From the NCBI GenBank assembly GCA_023665425.1, contig JAMPDX010000006.1, positions 1 through 64,000 of the forward strand: 64,000 nucleotides of DNA, in the 5' to 3' direction. Position numbers and translations under genes: made by a program. Position 1 is the first letter of the stretch, and every line of letters starts with the position of its first letter. Of this stretch, positions 98 through 56,637 are shown in pieces. Source of the stretch: Muribaculaceae bacterium. GTDB taxonomy: Bacteria; Bacteroidota; Bacteroidia; Bacteroidales; Muribaculaceae. The notes beneath the pieces are model-generated. The model did no database searches. It had not been told where the DNA came from and was given only the letters and a program-made list of their open reading frames with translations.

Positions 98-195
98 GGT
101 GTGCGGAGCACACCGATTTACAAGTAATCCCGCACATACGCGGCGCAGCCGGGGATGTGCGGGATTACTTGTAAATCGGTGTCTTGAAGGACACC
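98..195. repeat. Intergenic triple-hairpin repeat, copy A
   Basis: First of five related palindromic units in the window. The centre is a perfect 26-bp inverted repeat (112-137 pairing with 155-180) around a 17-nt loop that itself holds a CGGC/GCCG mini-stem. It is flanked by GGTGTGC/GCACACC (98-114) and by GGTGTC/GACACC (178-195). It lies downstream of the leftward aldolase gene, 76 nt from its stop codon. The other copies are at 26758, 39068, 49103 and 56499. It is too large and too GC-rich to be only a terminator, although it could stabilise or end the aldolase mRNA. No reading frame was seen in it. Confidence 0.85.
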
Positions 196-7633: not shown

Positions 7634-8335
7634 ATGAGACGTATTGCCTGGATTTTGATGACAATTTTGGCCGGAGTTTGTTCTCTCGCTGCGCGTGAAT
7701 ATAAAATTAACACCGGAGTATTCAACAAACTCAAAGTACCGGATAATCTTACAGTAATTTATGAGAGTGACCCCGAGCGCAACGGCGTTGCTACCTTTGA
7801 GTGCGCTGACAACATGGCTGATGCTTTTATGTTTGTCAACAACTCCAAGGGACGCCTGACTATTGAAATCTCCCCCGACTTCCTGGAGCAGGAAGTGGAT
7901 CTTCCCGTGATATATGTCTACTCTGAGTTTCTCACTGAAGTTGAGTCTTCATCTGATAAGAAGGTAACAGTCAAGCGGTTGGCACGTTCACCGGAGTTTA
8001 AAGCAATCCTCTTCGGCAATGGCACCCTGGAGCTCCTTGATATGGACCACAACAAGGTGTCTGCATCTTTGATGACCGGCCACGGTCTTATTCGACTCGA
8101 GGGCAAAGCTGCCGATGCCCTGTTTAAGGTGGCCGGCGCCGGTAAGATTGACGGCAGCCGATTGAAGGCCGACAAGGTCTCTTGCCACGTGTTCGGCGGA
8201 GGTGAAATATATTGTGCTCCCATCGATGAAATAAAACTTAAAGGCCTGGGCTCCACTACTGTATACTATACCGGTAACCCTAAGCAAGTCAAGAAGCAAG
8301 GTATCGTAAAACTCGTACATATCACAGACCGCTAA
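7634..8335 (+). CDS. Secreted GIN-domain (DUF2807) protein
   Basis: 233 aa. A signal peptide (MRRIAWILMTILAGVCSLAA) is followed by one domain of regularly spaced short beta strands: YKINTGVFNKLKVPDN, VIYESDP, VEVDLPVIYVYSE, FGGGEIYCAPI and IKLKGLGSTTVYYTGNP. This is the pattern of the Bacteroidetes GIN domain, called an auto-transporter adhesin head in databases. Its biochemical role is unknown. It lies 58 nt after dusB with no terminator between them and 18 nt before the flippase gene, so it is probably in the same transcription unit. Confidence 0.8.
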   Translation: MRRIAWILMTILAGVCSLAAREYKINTGVFNKLKVPDNLTVIYESDPERNGVATFECADNMADAFMFVNNSKGRLTIEISPDFLEQEVDLPVIYVYSEFLTEVESSSDKKVTVKRLARSPEFKAILFGNGTLELLDMDHNKVSASLMTGHGLIRLEGKAADALFKVAGAGKIDGSRLKADKVSCHVFGGGEIYCAPIDEIKLKGLGSTTVYYTGNPKQVKKQGIVKLVHITDR

Positions 8336-8353
8336 CCTATATCACACTGACAT

Positions 8354-9808
8354 TTGGCAGAAGAAACAGACATAAAGGGCAAGACGGCGCGCACGCTGAA
8401 ATGGAACACCATAGACCGCTTCAGCTCGCAAATCCTGTATGCCATAACCGGCATAATTCTTGCCAATGTGCTCCCGAAGGAGGACTTCGGCCTTGTGGGC
8501 GCCATCCTCGTGTTTCAAGCCTTCGCCACAATATTTGTTGATAGCGGCTTCGGCAGCGCGTTGTTGCAGAAAAAAACGCCCGACGATCGCGATTACAGTA
8601 CCGTCTTTTGGTTCAACCTCATTGTAGCTGTCGGCCTGTATCTTATACTGTTTATTGCCGCCCCGGTGCTTGCCGACATTTTTAAAGACGAGCGTATAAT
8701 ACCATTAAGCCGAGTAATGTTTCTCAGCTTTGTAATCAACGGGTTAGGCATAATCCAGACCAACCTGCTGATGAAGGCTATGACTGTGCGTCGCTTGGCA
8801 GTGTCGAATATATGTGCACTGTCTGTGAGTGGGGCTGCCGGTATATGGCTCGCGATAGCCGGTTATGGTGCCTGGTCGCTAGTGTGGCAGACAATTATCT
8901 TGGCCGTGGTACGCACCATATGGCTATGGGTTGCATCGCACTGGAGACCTATGCTATGTTTCAGTATTGAGTCTATTAAAAGCATCTTTAGGGTGGGAAT
9001 GGGAGTATTCTCAACCTCTTTTCTCAACACCGTCTTTCTGAACATCTATCCTTTTATCATCGGCGCCTGGTATAGCCTTGTCGCCTTGGGAGACTATACG
9101 CAGGCAGACAAGTGGAGCAAGATGGGAAGTGCATCTCTCTCGCAGATATTTATGGCCACCTTTGTGCCCCTTCTCTCCCGCTATCAAGACGACAACGAGC
9201 AATATGTGCGCACCATGAAGCAACTCAACCGCCTGAGTGCCTGTCTGGTATTCCCCTTCATGGGAGGGCTCGCCATAATGGCTCCCGCTATCTTTCACAC
9301 CCTATTTGGTACCAAATGGGATAGCGCAATTATTCTTTTTCAAATACTCGTGGTGCGCGGTGCTCTCACTGTGCTGTGCACCCTCTATAACAACTATCTG
9401 CTCTCTTTGGGCTATGCCCGCAGTCTGGTTATAATCGAGGTCGTAAAGGATGTTGCCACCGTCATAGCCATTTTTGCCACCGTTTGGCTACATTCGGTTA
9501 CATGGCTTGTCTTGGGACAATTGATAGCCGGCATATTCACTTGGATTGCTGTGCTTTGGATTACGCGCCGGGCTACCGGCTACAGCTATGGCACACTCAC
9601 AGCCGGCATGACACCATACCTGCTGTTGAGCCTCATCGCTATGGTCGGCGCATGGTTGGCCGCAGGACTATCGCTTTCTCCTATTCTCACCCTATTTGTA
9701 CAAACAGCCGTGGGGCTTATTATATATATCGGTGTGTTGGCCATGCTCAAGGACCCGGTGCTCCGGGAGGCGGCAACCTATCTGAAGCCCGGGCACAAAC
9801 GGGCGTGA
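8354..9808 (+). CDS. Polysaccharide / lipid-linked oligosaccharide flippase (MOP superfamily, Wzx-like)
   Basis: 484 aa integral membrane protein with about 12-14 hydrophobic segments. The N-terminus matches the family pattern TLKWNTIDRFSSQILYAI ... ILANVLPKEDFGLVG, and the middle shows GDYTQADKWSKMGSASL. It should move undecaprenyl- or lipid-linked glycans across the inner membrane. The start appears to be TTG at 8354: the alignable N-terminus begins at once (AEETDIKGKTARTLKWN), and the first in-frame ATG comes more than 100 codons later. It lies within the rightward unit that starts at 5333. Its substrate is not visible, and no other polysaccharide genes are adjacent. Confidence 0.87.
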   Translation: MAEETDIKGKTARTLKWNTIDRFSSQILYAITGIILANVLPKEDFGLVGAILVFQAFATIFVDSGFGSALLQKKTPDDRDYSTVFWFNLIVAVGLYLILFIAAPVLADIFKDERIIPLSRVMFLSFVINGLGIIQTNLLMKAMTVRRLAVSNICALSVSGAAGIWLAIAGYGAWSLVWQTIILAVVRTIWLWVASHWRPMLCFSIESIKSIFRVGMGVFSTSFLNTVFLNIYPFIIGAWYSLVALGDYTQADKWSKMGSASLSQIFMATFVPLLSRYQDDNEQYVRTMKQLNRLSACLVFPFMGGLAIMAPAIFHTLFGTKWDSAIILFQILVVRGALTVLCTLYNNYLLSLGYARSLVIIEVVKDVATVIAIFATVWLHSVTWLVLGQLIAGIFTWIAVLWITRRATGYSYGTLTAGMTPYLLLSLIAMVGAWLAAGLSLSPILTLFVQTAVGLIIYIGVLAMLKDPVLREAATYLKPGHKRA

Positions 9809-10900: not shown

Positions 10901-10963
10901 CAATAGCAACCATACACAAAAAGTCGCCTTCATCAGGCGACTTTTTGTGTATGGTTGCTATTG
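10901..10963. terminator. Perfect 29-bp bidirectional hairpin terminator
   Basis: The left arm 10901-10929 is an exact reverse complement of 10935-10963, with a 5-nt loop (TCATC). The arms contain an internal A-run/T-run (CAAAAAGTCGCCT / AGGCGACTTTTTG), so a U-tract exists in both directions inside the stem. It separates the rightward yeiH gene from the converging TonB-domain gene (stop at 10967, 3 nt away). Confidence 0.9.
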
Positions 10964-11326: not shown

Positions 11327-11330
11327 AGCT

Positions 11331-11706
11331 CTTAGACCCCATCTTATAAAATTTTTAAGGCTTAGGGGCGGTTTTGGGCGAAGGATTTTTGCAAGTTGAG
11401 GATGGAGCAATGCGGGGATTGCGACTGACGAGACTTGGCGAAAATCACCGGCCAAAACCGGACCGCTACTAACTTTAAAACATTTTACATGATTCCCGGG
11501 TATTTGTTAAATATTAATTATTTTTTGTTAATAATCTCTTAGGAAGGTTATTTTAGTAATAAAGTTACCTTTTATCTCACATCCTTGGGCTCTTTTTGTC
11601 CTTTGGCTCAGTCACATAGCTCGTTATGCTCCTTCGCCTACAGACCAAAAATAGCTGCAAGGCTGCGACCCCTAAGCCATAAAAATTTTATGGGATGGGG
11701 TCTTAG
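11331..11706. repeat. Inverted-repeat element X1 between frr and the TonB-domain gene
   Basis: The ends are inverted copies of a roughly 38-bp sequence (11331-11368 and 11669-11706; about 4 mismatches). Each end holds a hairpin of the form GACCCC ... CATAAAA/TTTTATG ... GGGGTC. Internal to each end is a further stretch of weaker similarity, containing ATTTTTG, GGAGCA and TGACTGA. One copy of the internal part also aligns with element X2 at 32165-32358 (TTTTGCAAGT, GGAG, TATGCGGG or AATGCGGG, ACTTGGC). The right end contains the frr stop codon. No reading frame of note and no consensus promoter were found inside. Confidence 0.65.
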
Positions 11707-12260
11707 ACCGTGAGAATCTCTTTCTCCTTGGCGGCAAAGAGTTCGTCAATTTTCTTCATGTACTTGTCGTGGAGCTTCTGCACATCATTCTCGGCATCCT
11801 TCTCCACATCCTCGCTCAGGCCCTTCTTGATTTCTTTCTTCAGGCCATCGATAGCCTCACGGCGAGCGTTGCGTACACTCACTTTTGCATTCTCTGCCTC
11901 ACCCTTGCTTTGCTTAACGAGTTGCTTACGGCGGTCCTCAGTAAGAGGGGGGATACAGATGCGTATTACCTCGCCGTTATTTTCGGGAGTGACACCGAGC
12001 TCAGAATTAATAATAGCCTTCTCTATCTCCTTGAACATGGACTTCTCCCAGGGAGTGATAGCGATAGTTCGGGCATCGGGCACACTGACATTGGCCACAT
12101 TGCTGATAGGAGCCTGTGAGCCATAGTAGTCTACTTTGATGCCATCGAGCAGACGGGCACTTGCCTTGCCGGCACGGATATGAGACAGTGTGTCATCCAG
12201 ATATTCGACTGCGAGAGTCATGTTGTCTTCTGCATTCTGCAGGTATTCAGATACTTCCAT
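11703..12260 (-). CDS. frr: Ribosome recycling factor
   Basis: 185 aa, the normal length. It releases 70S ribosomes from mRNA after termination together with EF-G. Seen: an N-terminal helix ([20 protein letters not shown]), the signature [19 protein letters not shown], then [37 protein letters not shown] and [13 protein letters not shown] with the long C-terminal helix. It follows pyrH with a 31-nt gap on the same strand, the usual pyrH-frr pairing in bacteria. Confidence 0.97.
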
Positions 12261-26578: not shown

Positions 26579-26757
26579 TCAAGATAACAAAAATCTATTT
26601 TTTAACATTATTTCACATATTTACCCTGCATTTTTAACTTTTCGCAGTGTAATTTTCGGCCTCGCGACCCAAAGTGAGCATTTGCAAGCAAATCTATGCT
26701 TTGTCTATTATTGCAAGTTTCGCAAGTAGTATATGTGCGAGGTCGGGTAGGCAAAAG

Positions 26758-26868
26758 AGTGTCTGCAAGGACACTGATTTATAGTAACCCCGTACACACG
26801 CGGCGTAGCCGTGGGTGTGCGGGGTTGGGTAGGCATACAAAAGGCGTGCGCAGCCCGCCGATTTACTG
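26758..26868. repeat. Intergenic hairpin repeat, copy B
   Basis: Same family as copy A, in inverse orientation. It contains AGTGTC/GACACT (26758-26775), then a core TAACCCCGTACACACG ... GGTGTGCGGGGTT (26785-26826) with an inner CGGC/GCCG stem. An extra right-hand module ends in GCCGATTTACTGC. Most similar to copy D at 49103. It lies 60 nt downstream of the small-lipoprotein gene that ends the FKBP operon. It fills the part of the 570-bp gap not taken by the Lrp leader and promoter. Confidence 0.8.
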
Positions 26869-31954: not shown

Positions 31955-32164
31955 TCATTTAGTAAGATATATTATTAGGAATGTGATCAAGCCGATCAAT
32001 ATTCCGATACCGTAGAGGCTGAGACTGACCTTGAAATAGGTTGGTTTGTCCCATAATATGCTGTCCCCATTGAAATACCTGACTCCCGCTATTGCCAGCA
32101 GCATGAAAGTCGGACCTATCAACACGAATCCAAATAGTAATGTAAATATAAGAAAAGCAGTCAT
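31955..32164 (-). CDS. Small two-helix membrane protein
   Basis: 69 aa. First transmembrane helix FLIFTLLFGFVLIGPTFMLL, a short polar loop (GVRYFNGDSILWDKPTYFK), second helix LSLYGIGILIGLITFLIIYL. Unknown family. It converges on the coiled-coil gene, with only 2 nt between their stop codons. The start codon lies directly against one end of element X2, and the leader just upstream (AAATTGAGTAGACAC) is nearly the same as that of the OMP gene at 17207. Confidence 0.5.
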   Translation of the reverse strand: MTAFLIFTLLFGFVLIGPTFMLLAIAGVRYFNGDSILWDKPTYFKVSLSLYGIGILIGLITFLIIYLTK

Positions 32165-32358
32165 AAGTGTCTACTCAATTTAAATTAAATTTTATGTGGC
32201 TATGCTCATTTATATTTAGAACTCTTTGTTCCGGCTTTTTTTGGCATCTTTTGCCAAGTTTCATAAGTCGTTATGCCCGCATAACTCCTTCTTCGACTTG
32301 CAAAATCTGCTCAAAAATTCGCTCGACATAAAGTTTAATTTAAATTGAGCAGCCACTT
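32165..32358. repeat. Inverted-repeat element X2
   Basis: Arms of about 36 bp at 32165-32200 and 32321-32358 are inverted copies (shared core CTCAATTTAAATTAAA, then TTTATGT). Between them, the segment 32250-32320 is palindromic in part (AAGTCGTTATGCC...GGAGTTATG type pairs; CATAAGTCGTTATG / CATAACTCC). The inside aligns with part of element X1 at 11331. The element occupies the whole gap between the 69-aa and 74-aa membrane-protein genes. No promoter consensus was found inside. Confidence 0.65.
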
Positions 32359-32365
32359 AATTCTT

Positions 32366-37570: not shown

Positions 37571-38923
37571 ATGAGCGAAAAAAATTGCACAAAAAATAAA
37601 AAAGTGCGCATCGAGACATACGGTTGTCAGATGAATGTGGCTGATTCTGAGGTGATTGCAACCGTTTTGCAATTGGCCGGATATGAGCCCACAGAGGATG
37701 ACTCGCATGCGGATATGGTGATAGTCAATACTTGTTCCATACGCGATAACGCTGAACAAAAGATCTTTTCGAGACTCCAATATTGGAATTCTTTGCGAAA
37801 AAAGCACCCCGGACAGCTCCTTATCGGGGTCTGCGGATGTATGGCCGAGAGGGTTAAAGAGGATTTGATGAAAAAAAATGGGGTGGACTTTGTGGCCGGC
37901 CCGGATGCATACCTCTCGCTGCCGGAGCTGGTGGCCTCTGCAGAGAACGGCCTCAAGGCAATGGATGTGGAGTTGTCGCTGACTCAGACCTACCGAGATG
38001 TGATACCTATGCGCTTGAGCCGTGCCCACATCAGCGGATACATCAGCATAATGCGCGGCTGCAACAATTTCTGCTCTTATTGTATAGTGCCTTACACTCG
38101 CGGCCGTGAACGTTCGCGCGAGCCGCGCAGCATCCTGGCCGAGCTCGACGATCTGCGTTCACGCGGCTTCAAGGAGGTGATTTTGCTCGGCCAAAATGTT
38201 AATTCTTATAAGTATGAGGATGAGGCGAGCGGTGAGGTGACTGACTTCCCCGGACTGTTGGCCCTCGTGGCTGAAGCTGCCCCGGATATGCGCATACGTT
38301 TCACTACATCCCACCCCAAGGATATGACAGACAGTACATTAGAGACTATGGCTGCTCACGACAATATAGCCAAGCATATCCACTTGCCGGTGCAGAGCGG
38401 CTCTAACCGTGTGCTCAAGCTGATGAACCGCAAGTACACCCGCGAGTGGTATATGGACCGAGTGGCAGCCATACGCCGCATACTGCCGGGGTGCGGGCTG
38501 ACGAGCGACCTCTTCACCGGCTTCCATTCAGAGACCGAGGAGGATTTTGAGCAGACACTCTCACTGATGCGCGAAGCGGGATTTGACGCTTCTTTTATGT
38601 TCAAATACTCTGAGAGGCCCGGCACATATGCCTCCAAGCATCTGCCGGACGATATCTCGGAGGAGGTGAAGATTGAGCGTCTTAACCGTATGATTGAGTT
38701 GCAGAATGAGCTCTCGCTGAAGAATAATCGCGCGGATATTGGCAAGGAATTCGAAGTGCTGATTGAGGGCCGCAGCAAGCGCAGCGCTGAGGACCTGTTT
38801 GGACGAACATCTCAAAACAAGGTATGTGTCTTTCCCGCCGCCGGTCATCATCCCGGAGAGTTTGTCCGTGTCCGCGTGCACGACGCCTCCTCTGCCACAC
38901 TCCTGTCCGAGATCATTTCCTAA
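37571..38923 (+). CDS. miaB: tRNA-2-methylthio-N6-isopentenyladenosine synthase
   Basis: 450 aa. Radical SAM methylthiotransferase acting on A37 of tRNAs reading UNN codons. The N-terminal UPF0004 domain carries three cysteines (YGCQMNVADSE, VNTCSIRDNAEQK, GVCGCMAERVKE). The radical SAM core has the motif CNNFCSYCIVPYTRGRERSR, then LLGQNVNSYKY, HLPVQSGSNRVLKLMNRKYT and DLFTGFHSETEEDFEQTL. The TRAM domain closes the protein (GRTSQNKVCVFPAAG ... VRVRVHDASS). The length is typical. MiaB rather than MtaB/RimO is indicated by the RGRERSR and QSGSN motifs. Confidence 0.95.
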   Translation: MSEKNCTKNKKVRIETYGCQMNVADSEVIATVLQLAGYEPTEDDSHADMVIVNTCSIRDNAEQKIFSRLQYWNSLRKKHPGQLLIGVCGCMAERVKEDLMKKNGVDFVAGPDAYLSLPELVASAENGLKAMDVELSLTQTYRDVIPMRLSRAHISGYISIMRGCNNFCSYCIVPYTRGRERSREPRSILAELDDLRSRGFKEVILLGQNVNSYKYEDEASGEVTDFPGLLALVAEAAPDMRIRFTTSHPKDMTDSTLETMAAHDNIAKHIHLPVQSGSNRVLKLMNRKYTREWYMDRVAAIRRILPGCGLTSDLFTGFHSETEEDFEQTLSLMREAGFDASFMFKYSERPGTYASKHLPDDISEEVKIERLNRMIELQNELSLKNNRADIGKEFEVLIEGRSKRSAEDLFGRTSQNKVCVFPAAGHHPGEFVRVRVHDASSATLLSEIIS

Positions 38924-39742
38924 CTCACAGTCGGCAGCTCTGCCTGCTTGCCTCATATCCAAGCCGACGGATAAATAATTTTAAGTTGAGTCCACTCTAA
39001 AAAGTCTAAAATGGCGATTTAGGACTTTGCAACTCCCTGATAATCAACGTGTGTACGGTGTTGCTATAAATTGGTGTCCTTGCGGACACCAATTTGTCTG
39101 CATGTCCCACCCCGCACATCCACGGCTACGCCGCTTATGTGCGGGGCTGCCGGTAAATCGGTGTCCCGGCGTACATCATCCCTTCGTATAATAGTCTCGT
39201 AATGCGTCTGTGTCTACCAATTGACCCTGTCTGCTGACACGATATAAGAAGAGTGGGTATATCCTCTCGGACATGCCCACACTATGTTTTTTCCTGCCGG
39301 GGGTTGTTGCCACCCCCTCCAGGCCGGCGCACGCGCCGGATAAGTTTACCATTATTTAACCAAACATTGTAACACGGCCGTTGTTACGGCCGCAGGCTTT
39401 GCAATGCTCACGCACCCCGCAGCCTTTTCTAACCAAACGAATGTGTCCTTGTTCCCTCACGGGAGTGTTGTAAGGACCATACTATTTTTGTCTCGAAGAT
39501 TCGAGTCAACAATTTTATAATTTTGCATTATGACCAACATTTGTCAGCTATAATATATAGGTCGCTGAAATATGCTATTTCAGCCGTCGGAGTGAGAAAG
39601 TCAGCGCCTTCTCCTGCTATGAAAAAGCATACAAATTTATATTTTTTTTGTGACAAGACCGCATATTTTCTCTAAAAAATTTCAACTATTTTATATGCAA
39701 TTGTCTCTCAATTACTTACAAGGGGTCGAGAATGCCCTATTT
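38924..39742. other. Long intergenic region between convergent genes
   Basis: 819 bp with no credible coding sequence. It holds a hairpin with AAAGTC (39002-39007) paired to GACTTT, 78 nt after miaB, then repeat copy C (39068-39166). It also holds a perfect 9-bp stem GCTGAAATA-TGC-TATTTCAGC (39564-39584) and several -7-like sequences (TATTTTTG 39483-39490, TAATTTTG 39518-39525) without partners at the right spacing. The region between 39190 and 39480 shows nothing recognisable. A 74-residue frame at 39650-39874 overlaps the beta-helix gene and is not supported. Confidence 0.55.
39068..39166. repeat. Intergenic hairpin repeat, copy C
   Basis: Contains a perfect 12-bp stem AAATTGGTGTCC/GGACACCAATTT (39068-39079 with 39084-39095). 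A core ACCCCGCACATCCACGGC ... TTATGTGCGGGGC with inner CGGC/GCCG pairing follows, then TAAATCGGTGTCC. It lies in the gap between two convergent genes, so it is 3' of both miaB and the beta-helix lipoprotein gene. Confidence 0.85.
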
Positions 39743-41146
39743 CTACTCTGTTGGGGCCACATACTGGTATGCACCAAGGGTGGGGGCCCCGTTTTGCAGG
39801 CGGTTTACGCCATCCATGTCATACCGGCATTGCGCTGTGACGTATCCCGAATTACCGGCGCCTATGGCCGGTGAGTCGGGTTTAACCCGATAGTTGAAAT
39901 AGTAGTCGCTGCGCTCGGTGTAGAACAGCGGGTCGCTGTCCCACAAGCAGGAGATGAAGTTGTCATCATCATTGCCGGCTGAGCGGAATAGGGTGTAGCG
40001 GAAGAAAATGTCGGAGCCGGATAGGTCACCTACATTAAGGTCTGAGGTCATGCCATAGACAATACAATTTTTAAATTCGCCAGTGAGTCCGTCAAGTCCA
40101 TCTTCCGTATTCCCATAAAATCCGATGAGGGAGCGGTAGGCCGCCGTAAACAGATAGTAGTTGGAGAATGTGCATTGTGTAAAGTCATACACACCGCCGG
40201 TGAGCTTTACTACATGGTCGGCAGCCTCGGAGAAACAGCATCCCAGAGCCGTCACATTGGCGTGAGAGACATCGAGCACGGAGCCCTGTGAGTTATGGAG
40301 CCAGGAGTTTAGAAGCAGCAGCTTGCTGTTGGATGTGTTGCCGGTTGAGTCTACGCGCAGGCCATGTACAGTGGAGCGCATGTCCACATACTCCATTCTG
40401 TTGTCAAAGCTTTCGGGGGCTATGGTGACACCTTGCCATTGCCCGGCCATGATGTCATAGCCCACGTCGGGCAACACATTGTCGAGTCTGTCACCGCGCA
40501 TAGCAATCATTTTGCCCGGTGCTCCCACTGCATTAAGGCGGCCGCGCACAGTGAGCGAGGCTTTGTCGTGGAAGAGTATCTGCGCGCCGGGGTCAATAGT
40601 CAGAGTGGTCCCTTTTTCCACTATCAGAGAGTCAAACACCACTATAGGGCGTTCGGCGGTGAAGTGTGTGTCGGATGTTATGCGCTCGTTATATAGGCGA
40701 GTCACATTCTGGCCCCATGCCTCCAACACCACACTCTGCTGCACTCCATTGGTAAGGAATTGTATTTTATCGGTGGTGAGCTGGGGCGCGTTTGTCTCCG
40801 ACAGGGGCAATCTGCACTCCACAAAGATGAATATCGAATCATTGGCTCGTATCTCCACGTCAGAGAACGAGGTGCCGCTCACTCCGTCTACATTTATCTG
40901 AAATTTGGAGTTTGCATTGGCCATGGCTATTGATGTTATGTTGATAGCCTTATTGGCTTTGTTATATACTTTCAGACGCGCCGTGGGTGTCCCTACATCC
41001 GTGAATACTGTGTCGAATGTGAGAGTATCGGTGGAGAATGTGAGTATGTCAGAGCTTGACGTGGTGAAGTCGTCGCTGATACAGGAGCCGAGAGAGAGCC
41101 CTATGACAGCGACGATCGCGAGGAATATGGATTGCAGATGTCTCAT
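39743..41146 (-). CDS. Beta-helix lipoprotein of Bacteroidales
   Basis: 467 aa. A lipoprotein signal (MRHLQSIFLAIVAVIGLSLG then SC) predicts an outer-membrane or surface anchor. Residues about 30-150 look like an immunoglobulin-like domain (LTFDTVFTDVGTPTARLKVY). Residues about 155-440 show the short parallel beta-helix repeats of pectate-lyase-like proteins (TLTIDPGAQILFHDKASLTV, GQWQGVTIAPES, NSKLLLLNSWLHNSQGSVLD, CCFSEAADHVVKLTGGVYDF). The C-terminus (VNRLQNGAPTLGAYQYV) is typical of this conserved Bacteroidales family. Substrate and role are unknown. The converging miaB gene lies 820 bp away. Confidence 0.8.
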   Translation of the reverse strand: MRHLQSIFLAIVAVIGLSLGSCISDDFTTSSSDILTFSTDTLTFDTVFTDVGTPTARLKVYNKANKAINITSIAMANANSKFQINVDGVSGTSFSDVEIRANDSIFIFVECRLPLSETNAPQLTTDKIQFLTNGVQQSVVLEAWGQNVTRLYNERITSDTHFTAERPIVVFDSLIVEKGTTLTIDPGAQILFHDKASLTVRGRLNAVGAPGKMIAMRGDRLDNVLPDVGYDIMAGQWQGVTIAPESFDNRMEYVDMRSTVHGLRVDSTGNTSNSKLLLLNSWLHNSQGSVLDVSHANVTALGCCFSEAADHVVKLTGGVYDFTQCTFSNYYLFTAAYRSLIGFYGNTEDGLDGLTGEFKNCIVYGMTSDLNVGDLSGSDIFFRYTLFRSAGNDDDNFISCLWDSDPLFYTERSDYYFNYRVKPDSPAIGAGNSGYVTAQCRYDMDGVNRLQNGAPTLGAYQYVAPTE

Positions 41147-49102: not shown

Positions 49103-49217
49103 AGGGGTGTCCGCAAGTACTCCGACTTATAGTAACCCCGTATACACGCGGCGATAGCCGTGGGTGTGCGGGGTAGGGTAGTCAAACAAAAAGAGTGCGT
49201 AGTCCGCCGATTTACTG
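49103..49217. repeat. Intergenic hairpin repeat, copy D
   Basis: Closest to copy B. It starts with a decayed GGTGTCC/GTACTCC stem, then a core TAACCCCGTATACACG ... GGTGTGCGGGGTA with inner CGGC/GCCG pairing, and the same right-hand module ending CCGCCGATTTACTG. The first stem is weaker than in copies A, C and E. It is in the 508-bp gap between two leftward genes, 3' of the 98-aa lipoprotein gene. The rest of the gap holds only the promoter at 48963 and the terminator at 49315. Confidence 0.8.
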
Positions 49218-49314: not shown

Positions 49315-49346
49315 AAACCGATGTTTCCAATCGGAAACATCGGTTT
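49315..49346 (-). terminator. Terminator of the heptad-repeat lipoprotein gene
   Basis: A perfect 14-bp stem AAACCGATGTTTCC/GGAAACATCGGTTT with a 4-nt loop, 25 nt past the stop codon at 49371. Followed on the minus strand by TCATTTTATA. Confidence 0.85.
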
Positions 49347-49370: not shown

Positions 49371-49667
49371 TTACTTAGCGGGCTTAGCGGGCTCAGCGGG
49401 AGTCTCAGCGGGAGTCTCAGCAGCAGCTGCGTCCTTAACCTCAGCAGCAGCGTCCTTAACCTCAGCCTCAGCCTCTTTAACCTCAGCCTCAGCGTCCTTA
49501 ACCTCAGCCTCAGCCTCAGCCTTGTTAGCTGTATCCACAGCCTCGGGAGCAACCTGCTCTGCAGCCTCAGGAGCTGTAGTATCGTTAGTTTCACCGTTGC
49601 CGCTCTTGCCGCAAGATACGAGTGCTACTGTAGCGAGCACTGCGAGAGAAAGAATGATCTTCTTCAT
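49371..49667 (-). CDS. Small heptad-repeat lipoprotein
   Basis: 98 aa. A lipoprotein signal (MKKIILSLAVLATVALVSCG) with a clear lipobox Leu-Val-Ser-Cys. The mature part is nearly all Ala, Glu, Val, Lys and Asp in tandem copies of AEAEVKD/AAAEVKD (about residues 52-83), followed by TPAETPAEPAKPAK. The repeat unit of 7 residues is encoded by a near-perfect 21-nt DNA tandem and is prone to length variation. It would form an amphipathic helix like the Lpp/Braun type, but no terminal Lys-Tyr pattern is clear. Transcribed alone with a promoter at 49721-49751 and a strong terminator. Confidence 0.7.
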   Translation of the reverse strand: MKKIILSLAVLATVALVSCGKSGNGETNDTTAPEAAEQVAPEAVDTANKAEAEAEVKDAEAEVKEAEAEVKDAAAEVKDAAAAETPAETPAEPAKPAK

Positions 49668-56419: not shown

Positions 56420-56493
56420 GTGTTTTTCATAGTATTAAATTAAGATTAAGGTTTCAGCCGGCTACCTTGTGAAAGGGAGCCGGTTATTTTTTC
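56420..56493 (+). ncRNA. Candidate small intergenic RNA
   Basis: About 74 nt from the predicted start of transcription after the promoter at 56385-56415 to an intrinsic terminator. The terminator stem is AGCCGGCT (56456-56463) with AGCCGGTT (56478-56485) (one G-T pair), extended by CTT/AAG inside the loop, and followed by TTATTTTTTCT. The unstructured 5' half is AT-rich (GTGTTTTTCATAGTATTA). No start codon with a convincing reading frame was seen in it. It does not match a small RNA family known to me. It ends a few bases before repeat copy E. Confidence 0.55.
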
Positions 56494-56498
56494 TCCAC

Positions 56499-56571
56499 AG
56501 TAACCCCGCACATCCACGGCTTCGCCGTCTATGTACGGGGTTACTAATAAATTGGTGTCCGGACGGACACC
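56499..56571. repeat. Intergenic hairpin repeat, copy E
   Basis: Compact copy: AGTAACCCCGCACATCC (56499-56515) with matching TATGTACGGGGTTACT (56530-56545), inner CGGC/GCCG hairpin, then GGTGTCC/GGACACC (56554-56560 with 56565-56571). It lies 66 nt after the leftward ubiE gene. Confidence 0.85.
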
Positions 56572-56637
56572 GGACGCAACGCATCTTTTAGTCCTCGTGG
56601 GTTTGTGTTCCACGAGATTGATTTATAAGTGAGTATG

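Follow-up and report, generated by a model that had tools for sequence, protein, structure and literature searches.

A dispersed three-hairpin repeat in a Muribaculaceae genome and its probable partner, a class 1 Y1 transposase

The repeats described here, from a Muribaculaceae bacterium, resemble several known systems at once. In the REP/BIME systems of E. coli, Pseudomonas and Stenotrophomonas, which are served by class 2 TnpA-REP proteins (RAYTs), opposed palindromes are dispersed between genes, carry a 5' tetranucleotide tag, show a bias for gene 3' ends and accompany a Y1 gene of low copy number that lies between repeats of its own kind, an arrangement called a REPtron; our repeats resemble them in these respects, with GTAA or GTAG in the place of the tag. 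IS200/IS605 elements, including IS608 and ISDra2, supply the closest solved relatives of the protein discussed below and likewise have hairpins near their ends. MITEs such as RUP and NEMIS (PMC3733652) are matched by a part of our family in length (about 191-199 bp), in terminal inverted repeats (AATTCAAGTTTCGCAAGTA) and in duplication-like flanks.

The fourth counterpart is a class of proteins. As described by Quentin et al. (2018; PMC6006769), TnpAY1 subclass 1.2 is recognised by the HuH motif DH[IV]H, the signature Y---Q--HH and low copy number; its W motif is WQ, typical terminal IS200 structures are generally lacking, and Table 1 enters "no" for REPs. The protein found here has the same two motifs, about 150 residues, low copy number and a host in the Bacteroidota. 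In searches of the open-licence PMC literature, none of the titles and abstracts listed describes REPs for subclass 1.2 or the present unit. We consider it quite probable that this unit is a REP-type, three-hairpin family which the only Y1 transposase detected in the genome cuts and mobilises in single-stranded form.

Architecture, covariation and dispersal of the repeat

The unit has three hairpins in the order H1-GATTTA-nn-GTAA-H2-linker-H3-GATTTAC, derived from an alignment of 28 of the 40 listed copies in this genome from which near-duplicates and hairpin-deficient forms, such as copies A and E below, were set aside. In this alignment, H1 (GGTGTCC..GGACACC) is followed by GATTTA or GACTTA, a few bases and GTAA; H2 is CCCCGTACAC.CGCGGC..GCCGTG.GTGTGCGGGG; the linker from H2 to H3 is A-rich in its 3' part; and H3 is either H1-like or GGCGTGCG..CCGCC with one mismatch, with the 3' tail GATTTACTG. 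REP/BIME elements have a conserved GT[AG]G at the corresponding 5' foot; here the tag before H2 is GTAA in 25 of the 28. Among 69 aligned matches from relatives it is GTAA in 29 and GTAG in 23, together 52, while GAT stands 3' of H1 in 49 and 3' of H3 in 53. Judged by the position of the tag in the sequence, H2 is opposed to H1 and H3, and palindromes combined in opposite orientation and gathered in tandem arrays are what characterises REP/BIME elements.

The window, that is, the whole stretch of 64,000 nucleotides that was analysed, holds five copies. All five had been located by the initial annotation, which also described their central stem, inner CGGC/GCCG hairpin and GGTGTCC-type side hairpin; these are present, and each copy folds more stably than any of its 200 shuffles (z -3.1 to -12.3, copy E being folded as 56480-56580). 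The copies fall into sub-types. Copy A (98..195) is an inverted dimer, matched by covariance model R1 on both strands, in which H1 (98-114), GATTTA (115-120), GTAA (124-127) and H2 (126-166) are followed by an inverted TAAATC and a hairpin (172-195); its 35-bp arms are 94% complementary, its stem change relative to the other copies is compensated, and it lies near the contig end beside a single gene. Copy B (26757..26868, + strand) is a full three-hairpin unit, with H1 at 26758-26775, GATTTA at 26776-26781, GTAA at 26784-26787, H2 at 26786-26826, H3 at 26843-26859 and GATTTACTG at 26860-26868. It has the top model score in the genome (130.5 bits) and was itself among the sequences on which the model was trained. 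The left terminal inverted repeat of its longer, MITE-like unit, AAGTTTCGCAAGTA, lies at 26715..26728 (+), and the right end is not clear. Copy C (39064..39178, - strand) is a three-hairpin unit between convergent genes at 37571-38923 (+) and 39743-41146 (-). Copy D (49105..49217, +) is a three-hairpin unit of the same sub-type as B, the two being 89% alike over the 3' 63 bp and sharing the variant third hairpin GGCGTGCG..CCGCC. Copy E (56447..56572, -) has H1 and H2, which correspond to the 56499-56571 first annotated, and is without the third hairpin, an unrelated one occupying its position.

Other structures lie in the same window. Positions 38987-39047 are a piece of another repeat of about 115 bp with terminal repeats GAGTCCACTCTAAAAAGT, also present in nine further stretches of the genome, several of which directly adjoin an end of the MITE-like unit. 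Inverted repeats at 11330-11707 (39 bp, 90% complementary, spacing 300 bp) and at 32164-32359 (34 bp, 91% complementary, spacing 128 bp) are possibly other MITE-like units. A perfect 29-bp hairpin at 10901-10963, with convergent genes on either side, resembles an ordinary two-way terminator, and a 14-pair hairpin at 49315-49346, close to copy D, is terminator-like on both strands. Tandem repeats of 21 bp at 49400-49525 fall within a predicted small gene.

Compensatory change has preserved the stems, as the five copies had suggested. Within the genome, eight pairs have changed on both sides (32 cells), a result reached by none of 500 shuffles, and structures slid along the alignment give at most four pairs and eight cells; the number of pair types is not above that of the shuffles (163/500). 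Because these copies are related to each other, the cross-genus alignment is the stronger test. There, in 69 matches from 31 loci, 22 of the 24 predicted pairs have at least one compensated double change, with the alignment fitted to the model and its counts thus leaning towards the model structure; a structure predicted anew from the same alignment has the same three stems. Counted over all 24 pairs, with the inner pair that accounts for five A-C cells kept in, there are 59 G-T and 10 A-C cells, or 23 and 10 (p 0.035) without one recurrent G-T pair. This excess makes it more likely that the strand as written is the one that folds.

A search of the 2.17 Mb draft genome (97.6% complete) with R1 gave 142 rows at E<=0.1 and 112 at E<=1e-5. 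The latter reduce to 89 places without overlap and, when a spacing above 400 bp is required, to 78 sites, which include one on each side of the Y1 gene. The initial estimate of hundreds of copies was therefore too high; a family of fewer than ten copies and stems without covariation, two of the outcomes named as refuting the initial interpretation, are both excluded. The looser motif GGACRCCGAYTTA (hairpin and tag, at most one mismatch) has 123 matches compared with 7 for its reversed control, and in nucleotide searches of the whole genome (E<=1, both strands counted) copy A gives 52 matches and copy B gives 63. Integron attC sites were considered as well, but the copies are scattered among ordinary genes. 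On contigs C33, C4, C2 and C13 copies lie no more than 250 bp from an end, and 154 bp separate the array on C20 from the end of that contig; such repeats may be among the reasons why draft genomes of this kind break into contigs.

The Y1 transposase gene and its relatives

On a contig other than that of the window, a 155-aa open reading frame (L091, C20:8316-8783) contains the only match to PF01797 (Y1_Tnp) in the draft genome at E<=0.001 (C20:8328-8666). Tandem hairpin arrays with periods of 244, 81 and 83/171 bp flank the gene on both sides. They comprise 16 R1 matches at E<=1e-5 within 2.4 kb, the largest array in the genome, and hold both orientations, the units next to the gene being inverted (8161-8274, +; 8778-8890, -). 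A Y1 gene with its cognate repeats on either side and further copies dispersed elsewhere, as is the case here, constitutes a REPtron. Because the only Y1 gene found lies within a cluster of the unit, the enzyme likely spreads or maintains it.

A linked Y1 transposase of the TnpA-REP type had been anticipated; the gene is indeed there, within arrays, but its protein is closer to the IS200 members of the family and is not a typical TnpA-REP. It passes the NCBIfam cut-off for IS200/IS605 (60.2 bits, cut-off 55) and stays below that for REP_Tyr_transpos (NF047646; 24.3 of 80 bits). Its motifs are MPDHIH (HuH) and YIMHQKEHH, which reads Y---Q--HH. Its sequence relatives of solved structure are IS200-type, including ISDra2 and IS608, and its predicted structure (pLDDT 87.7) has the Y1 fold, nearest to the TnpA of ISDra2 and IS608, with the TnpA-REP 4er8 at rank 30. 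A canonical class 2 RAYT was dropped in view of Y---Q--HH in place of Y---NP and of the 24.3 of 80 bits. The HuH histidines, the tyrosine, the glutamine and HH are invariant in all 18 aligned sequences, a selection from 30 fetched loci that leaves out, among others, three with N instead of D in the HuH motif (L113, L118, L120) and two Y1 sequences with a stop (L096, L097). The genomes of these last two (G128, G142) each have a Y1 match with one in-frame stop and a second, stop-free match.

By motif, length and taxon, the protein appears to belong to subclass 1.2. It has DH[IV]H and Y---Q--HH, it is encoded by one gene in the genome, and the WQ motif is half present (W, then A). The absence of REPs given for the subclass does not hold here, where flank repeats are shared and in several genomes dispersed; we read the "no" of Table 1 as a limit of the table and not as excluding the protein from the subclass.

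The covariance-model search proposed at the outset reached beyond the source genome. At E<=1e-4, R1 finds the unit in 25 of 196 family genomes and in 9 of 30 genera, per-genome counts being "at least" values since at most 19 candidates were scored in each; a Y1 match at E<=1e-5 occurs in 93 of 198 family genomes, including the source genome. When the two surveys are pooled as one sample, the unit is present in 12 of 14 genomes with a close Y1 (E<=1e-37, source genome included) versus 13 of 182 others (Fisher 9e-11, kinship ignored), and in 20 of 93 with any Y1 match versus 5 of 105 without (p 5e-4, kinship ignored). The five unit-bearing genomes without a Y1 match, out of 25, are G034, G054, G090, G160 and G161, and drafts may miss the gene; two of the 14 with a close Y1 (G103, G132) have no unit. 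Within the source genus, the unit occurs in 1 of 15 other sampled genomes, G086, whose Y1 is distant (E 4.6e-16), and G113, G150 and G167 have a Y1 match and no unit. All but one of the 30 fetched family loci encode Y---Q--HH (L106, L110 and L114 among them), the stop of L096 falling within this motif, and 28 have at least one 14-mer common to both flanks, a count made without a control.

Flank repeats recur more widely. A scan of named genomes for Y1 relatives yielded 577 loci, and the results that follow concern the best 80, nine of which are the same places as loci of the family survey. Nearly all are from Bacteroidota, Chryseobacterium and Epilithonimonas among them; three records bear the label Clostridia, Lachnospiraceae or simply "bacterium". 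Y---Q--HH lies in the matched stretch of 75 of these 80, and 67 have a 13-mer common to both flanks (400 and 460 bp), inverted in 62 and direct in 29. The controls give 2 of 61 for sequence some 1.5 kb further off and, when partners are swapped, 8 of 80 on average; some of the shared repeats could be no more than terminal inverted repeats. Hairpins average 2.47 near the gene and 1.00 far away in the 60 long-flank loci among the 80. R1 itself has 40 matches in 19 of the 80 loci, 38 of them no more than 300 bp from the Y1 gene, against the 12% that sequence length alone predicts. The nearest upstream unit is on the + strand in 16 cases and on the - strand in 1, the nearest downstream unit on the - strand in 13 and on the + strand in 1, and 12 loci have units on both sides. 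Thus, where the unit is recognised, the usual order is [unit >] tnpA [< unit], with L242 as the exception. Since R1 matches occur in just 19 of the best 80 loci, the three-hairpin form is not general.

Other forms are dispersed to differing degrees. The unit of G153 has 29 places in its own genome (10 beside Y1, 6 about 45 kb off, and 13 more than 50 kb off or on another contig), with six weak places in G000, eight in G007 and none in nine other genomes searched. The repeat of G135 is mostly local, with six of seven matches on the Y1 contig and none in 11 other genomes. The flank repeat of Chryseobacterium ZHDP1 matches three Chryseobacterium genomes at 13, 19 and 16 places and has no match in a Muribaculaceae isolate; in ZHDP1, 9 of 13 places are more than 50 kb from the Y1 gene. 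In two Chryseobacterium loci (L308, L274), the inverted flank repeats resemble two-hairpin modules, GAACCC GAA GGGTTC plus CCATAGGT..ACCTACGG, whose dispersed copies are often paired about 67 bp apart.

The MITE-like layer and the gene context

The initial suggestion of a likeness to REP/BIME elements or to MITEs is borne out on both counts. Copies of the B/D type sit in a longer unit of about 191 bp that ends in AATTCAAGTTTCGCAAGTA and its inverse. We examined 71 copies from 69 of the 78 sites, two of which contribute two copies each; this set was picked by hand from the R1 census and omits both arrays beside the Y1 gene as well as C20:3676, C4:2, C2:203, C13:229, C5:1430, C4:14333 and C8:4200. 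Terminal repeats are found at both ends in 24 copies, on the left only in 12, on the right only in 11 and at neither end in 24, with about 4% expected per side, and 22 of the 24 two-ended copies are 188-191 bp long. In the 23 of these 24 that are measurable, duplication-like flanks average 5.0 nt compared with 2.7 with shuffled partners (0/200), and nine reach 6 nt or more where 2.0 are expected; exact duplications of 7-12 nt flank seven of the 23, the longest being 12 bp at C34:23921, and four have none. Terminal inverted repeats with target duplication, the mark of a MITE, thus belong to part of the family, and the rest does not need them.

Because 47 of the 71 copies have at least one such end, much of the copy number may be due to MITE spread. 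These regularities of ends, length and flanks are what could be expected if a DDE-type transposase moved a MITE through its terminal inverted repeats, with the hairpins as passive cargo. We consider this unlikely as an account of the family, since cross-genus covariation is unexpected for passive cargo, and spread by a MITE alone was dropped in view of the 24 copies with neither end and the absence of the terminal repeat from the edges and the inside of the Y1-gene arrays. Both ends are also present in just 2 of 69 units of relatives, so that, together with the end-free arrays, the MITE layer is mostly a feature of this genome. Inspection by eye of 79 terminal-repeat matches (27 in the reversed control) revealed no inverted pair about 0.8-2 kb apart that could mark an autonomous partner. 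At copy C, the flanks in relatives are far apart or on different contigs and give no clean empty site; G086 has a possible remnant hairpin near the right flank of that site.

A second alternative is that the unit is a structured RNA at mRNA 3' ends (a terminator, stabiliser or processing site) selected for its effect on expression. It was first reported that copies lie only downstream of genes. In the window, all five copies are indeed found on the 3' side of predicted genes; three of them, B, D and E, are at the same time 5' of the next codirectional gene, and the claim fails for the genome as a whole. With genes predicted by a custom codon-usage caller, 65 of the 71 copies could be classified, six being at edges: 27 lie in convergent, 32 in codirectional and 6 in divergent gaps, so that 3' placement is a bias and not a rule. 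None of the 65 is inside a gene; short imperfect palindromes in many intergenic copies, here at 78 separated sites, are typical of REP/BIME elements. Copy-free gaps of at least 100 bp in the same DNA (n=40) are convergent in 8, codirectional in 20 and divergent in 12 cases, divergent gaps being rarer with copies (6/65 versus 12/40, p 0.008), and the gene ends that face copies are 86 3' and 44 5', so that the two are not equally common.

This bias, and the fact that the stems covary and contain G-T pairs, would suit an RNA function. However, in codirectional gaps the unit has the orientation of the genes in 21 cases and the opposite one in 11, and copies are no closer to the 3' end of the upstream gene (18/32). 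The central hairpin H2 has no 3' T tract, for which reason an intrinsic terminator was dropped as the main role; a terminator scan of copies B-E did not report H2, and weak terminator-like matches, in the side hairpins of B and E and the inner H2 stem of A (minus strand), come at about the shuffle rate. Apart from a tRNA, no Rfam family scored above its gathering threshold in the 64-kb window, and the idea of a known Rfam RNA was dropped; furthermore, Y1 genes have units both upstream and downstream, in inverted orientation. The 3'-end bias is what insertions tolerated away from promoters would be expected to give, and a comparable bias is reported for REPs generally in PMC3733652. It offers little support for a directed RNA role, which we regard as improbable. 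The least credible account, in which inert palindromes multiplied by local tandem duplication or recombination and the Y1 gene lies among them by chance, could point to arrays without a Y1 gene at C11:525840-526428 and C11:287023-287630, but it is contradicted by the position of the one Y1 gene in the largest array, by the recurrence of this arrangement in other genera and by the frequent presence of the unit in genomes that have a close Y1 gene.

A probable REP system served by a class 1 protein

We therefore return to a REP-type family served by its own Y1 transposase. We observed directly that the unit covaries and is dispersed, that the Y1 gene sits within the largest array, and that inverted units closely flank Y1 genes in other genomes. 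By analogy, protein and repeats may work like a TnpA-REP with its REPs. As class 2 TnpA-REP does with GTAG, the Y1 protein would recognise H2 by the GTAR tag that lies at the 5' foot of this hairpin, and H1 and H3 would be opposed REPs with the foot TAAATC on the other strand. If the cross-pairing rule reported for GTAG in PMC8266576 applies, a GTAA tag would go with a different cleavage dinucleotide. We infer that the protein binds, cleaves and mobilises the units, and that new copies would arise on single-stranded DNA, for example on the lagging strand. Part of the copies in the source genome appear to have spread as cargo of the MITE-like unit of about 191 bp.

These results bear on a broader question of how REP systems have evolved. 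It seems to us an evenly balanced proposition that such systems arose twice, once with the class 2 RAYTs and once in a class 1, IS200-side lineage of Bacteroidota, in which a low-copy enzyme maintains covarying multi-hairpin DNA throughout the genome, and that in the present genome a MITE hijacked this DNA as cargo. Subclass 1.2 Y1 proteins, which have been described without a DNA partner, gain a candidate substrate in the GTAR-tagged H2 with its opposed H1 and H3. The known range of REPtrons would likewise grow to include class 1 proteins as well as Bacteroidota from the gut and the environment.

Comparison with the known systems defines what is distinctive here. Whereas IS200/IS605 elements have hairpins near their ends, our gene is present in a single copy with inverted multi-hairpin units on both sides and many dispersed, end-like units; and unlike described MITEs, the MITE-like unit carries a REP trimer and has no autonomous partner that we could see. 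In contrast to subclass 1.2 as characterised in PMC6006769, most of the genes of this kind that we examined have repeats in common between their two flanks, and several genomes contain such repeats at dispersed places as well. The repeats are of the REP kind in their copy number, their palindromes and their REPtron, yet they do not belong to the class 2 RAYT family: by its motif (Y---Q--HH where RAYTs have Y---NP) the protein falls into class 1, and the unit, in contrast to class 2 REPs, is a trimer that is conserved, has GTAA or GTAG ahead of H2 and has GATTTA-like sequences 3' of H1 and H3. What is new is thus a REP system with a class 1, not a class 2, Y1 protein.
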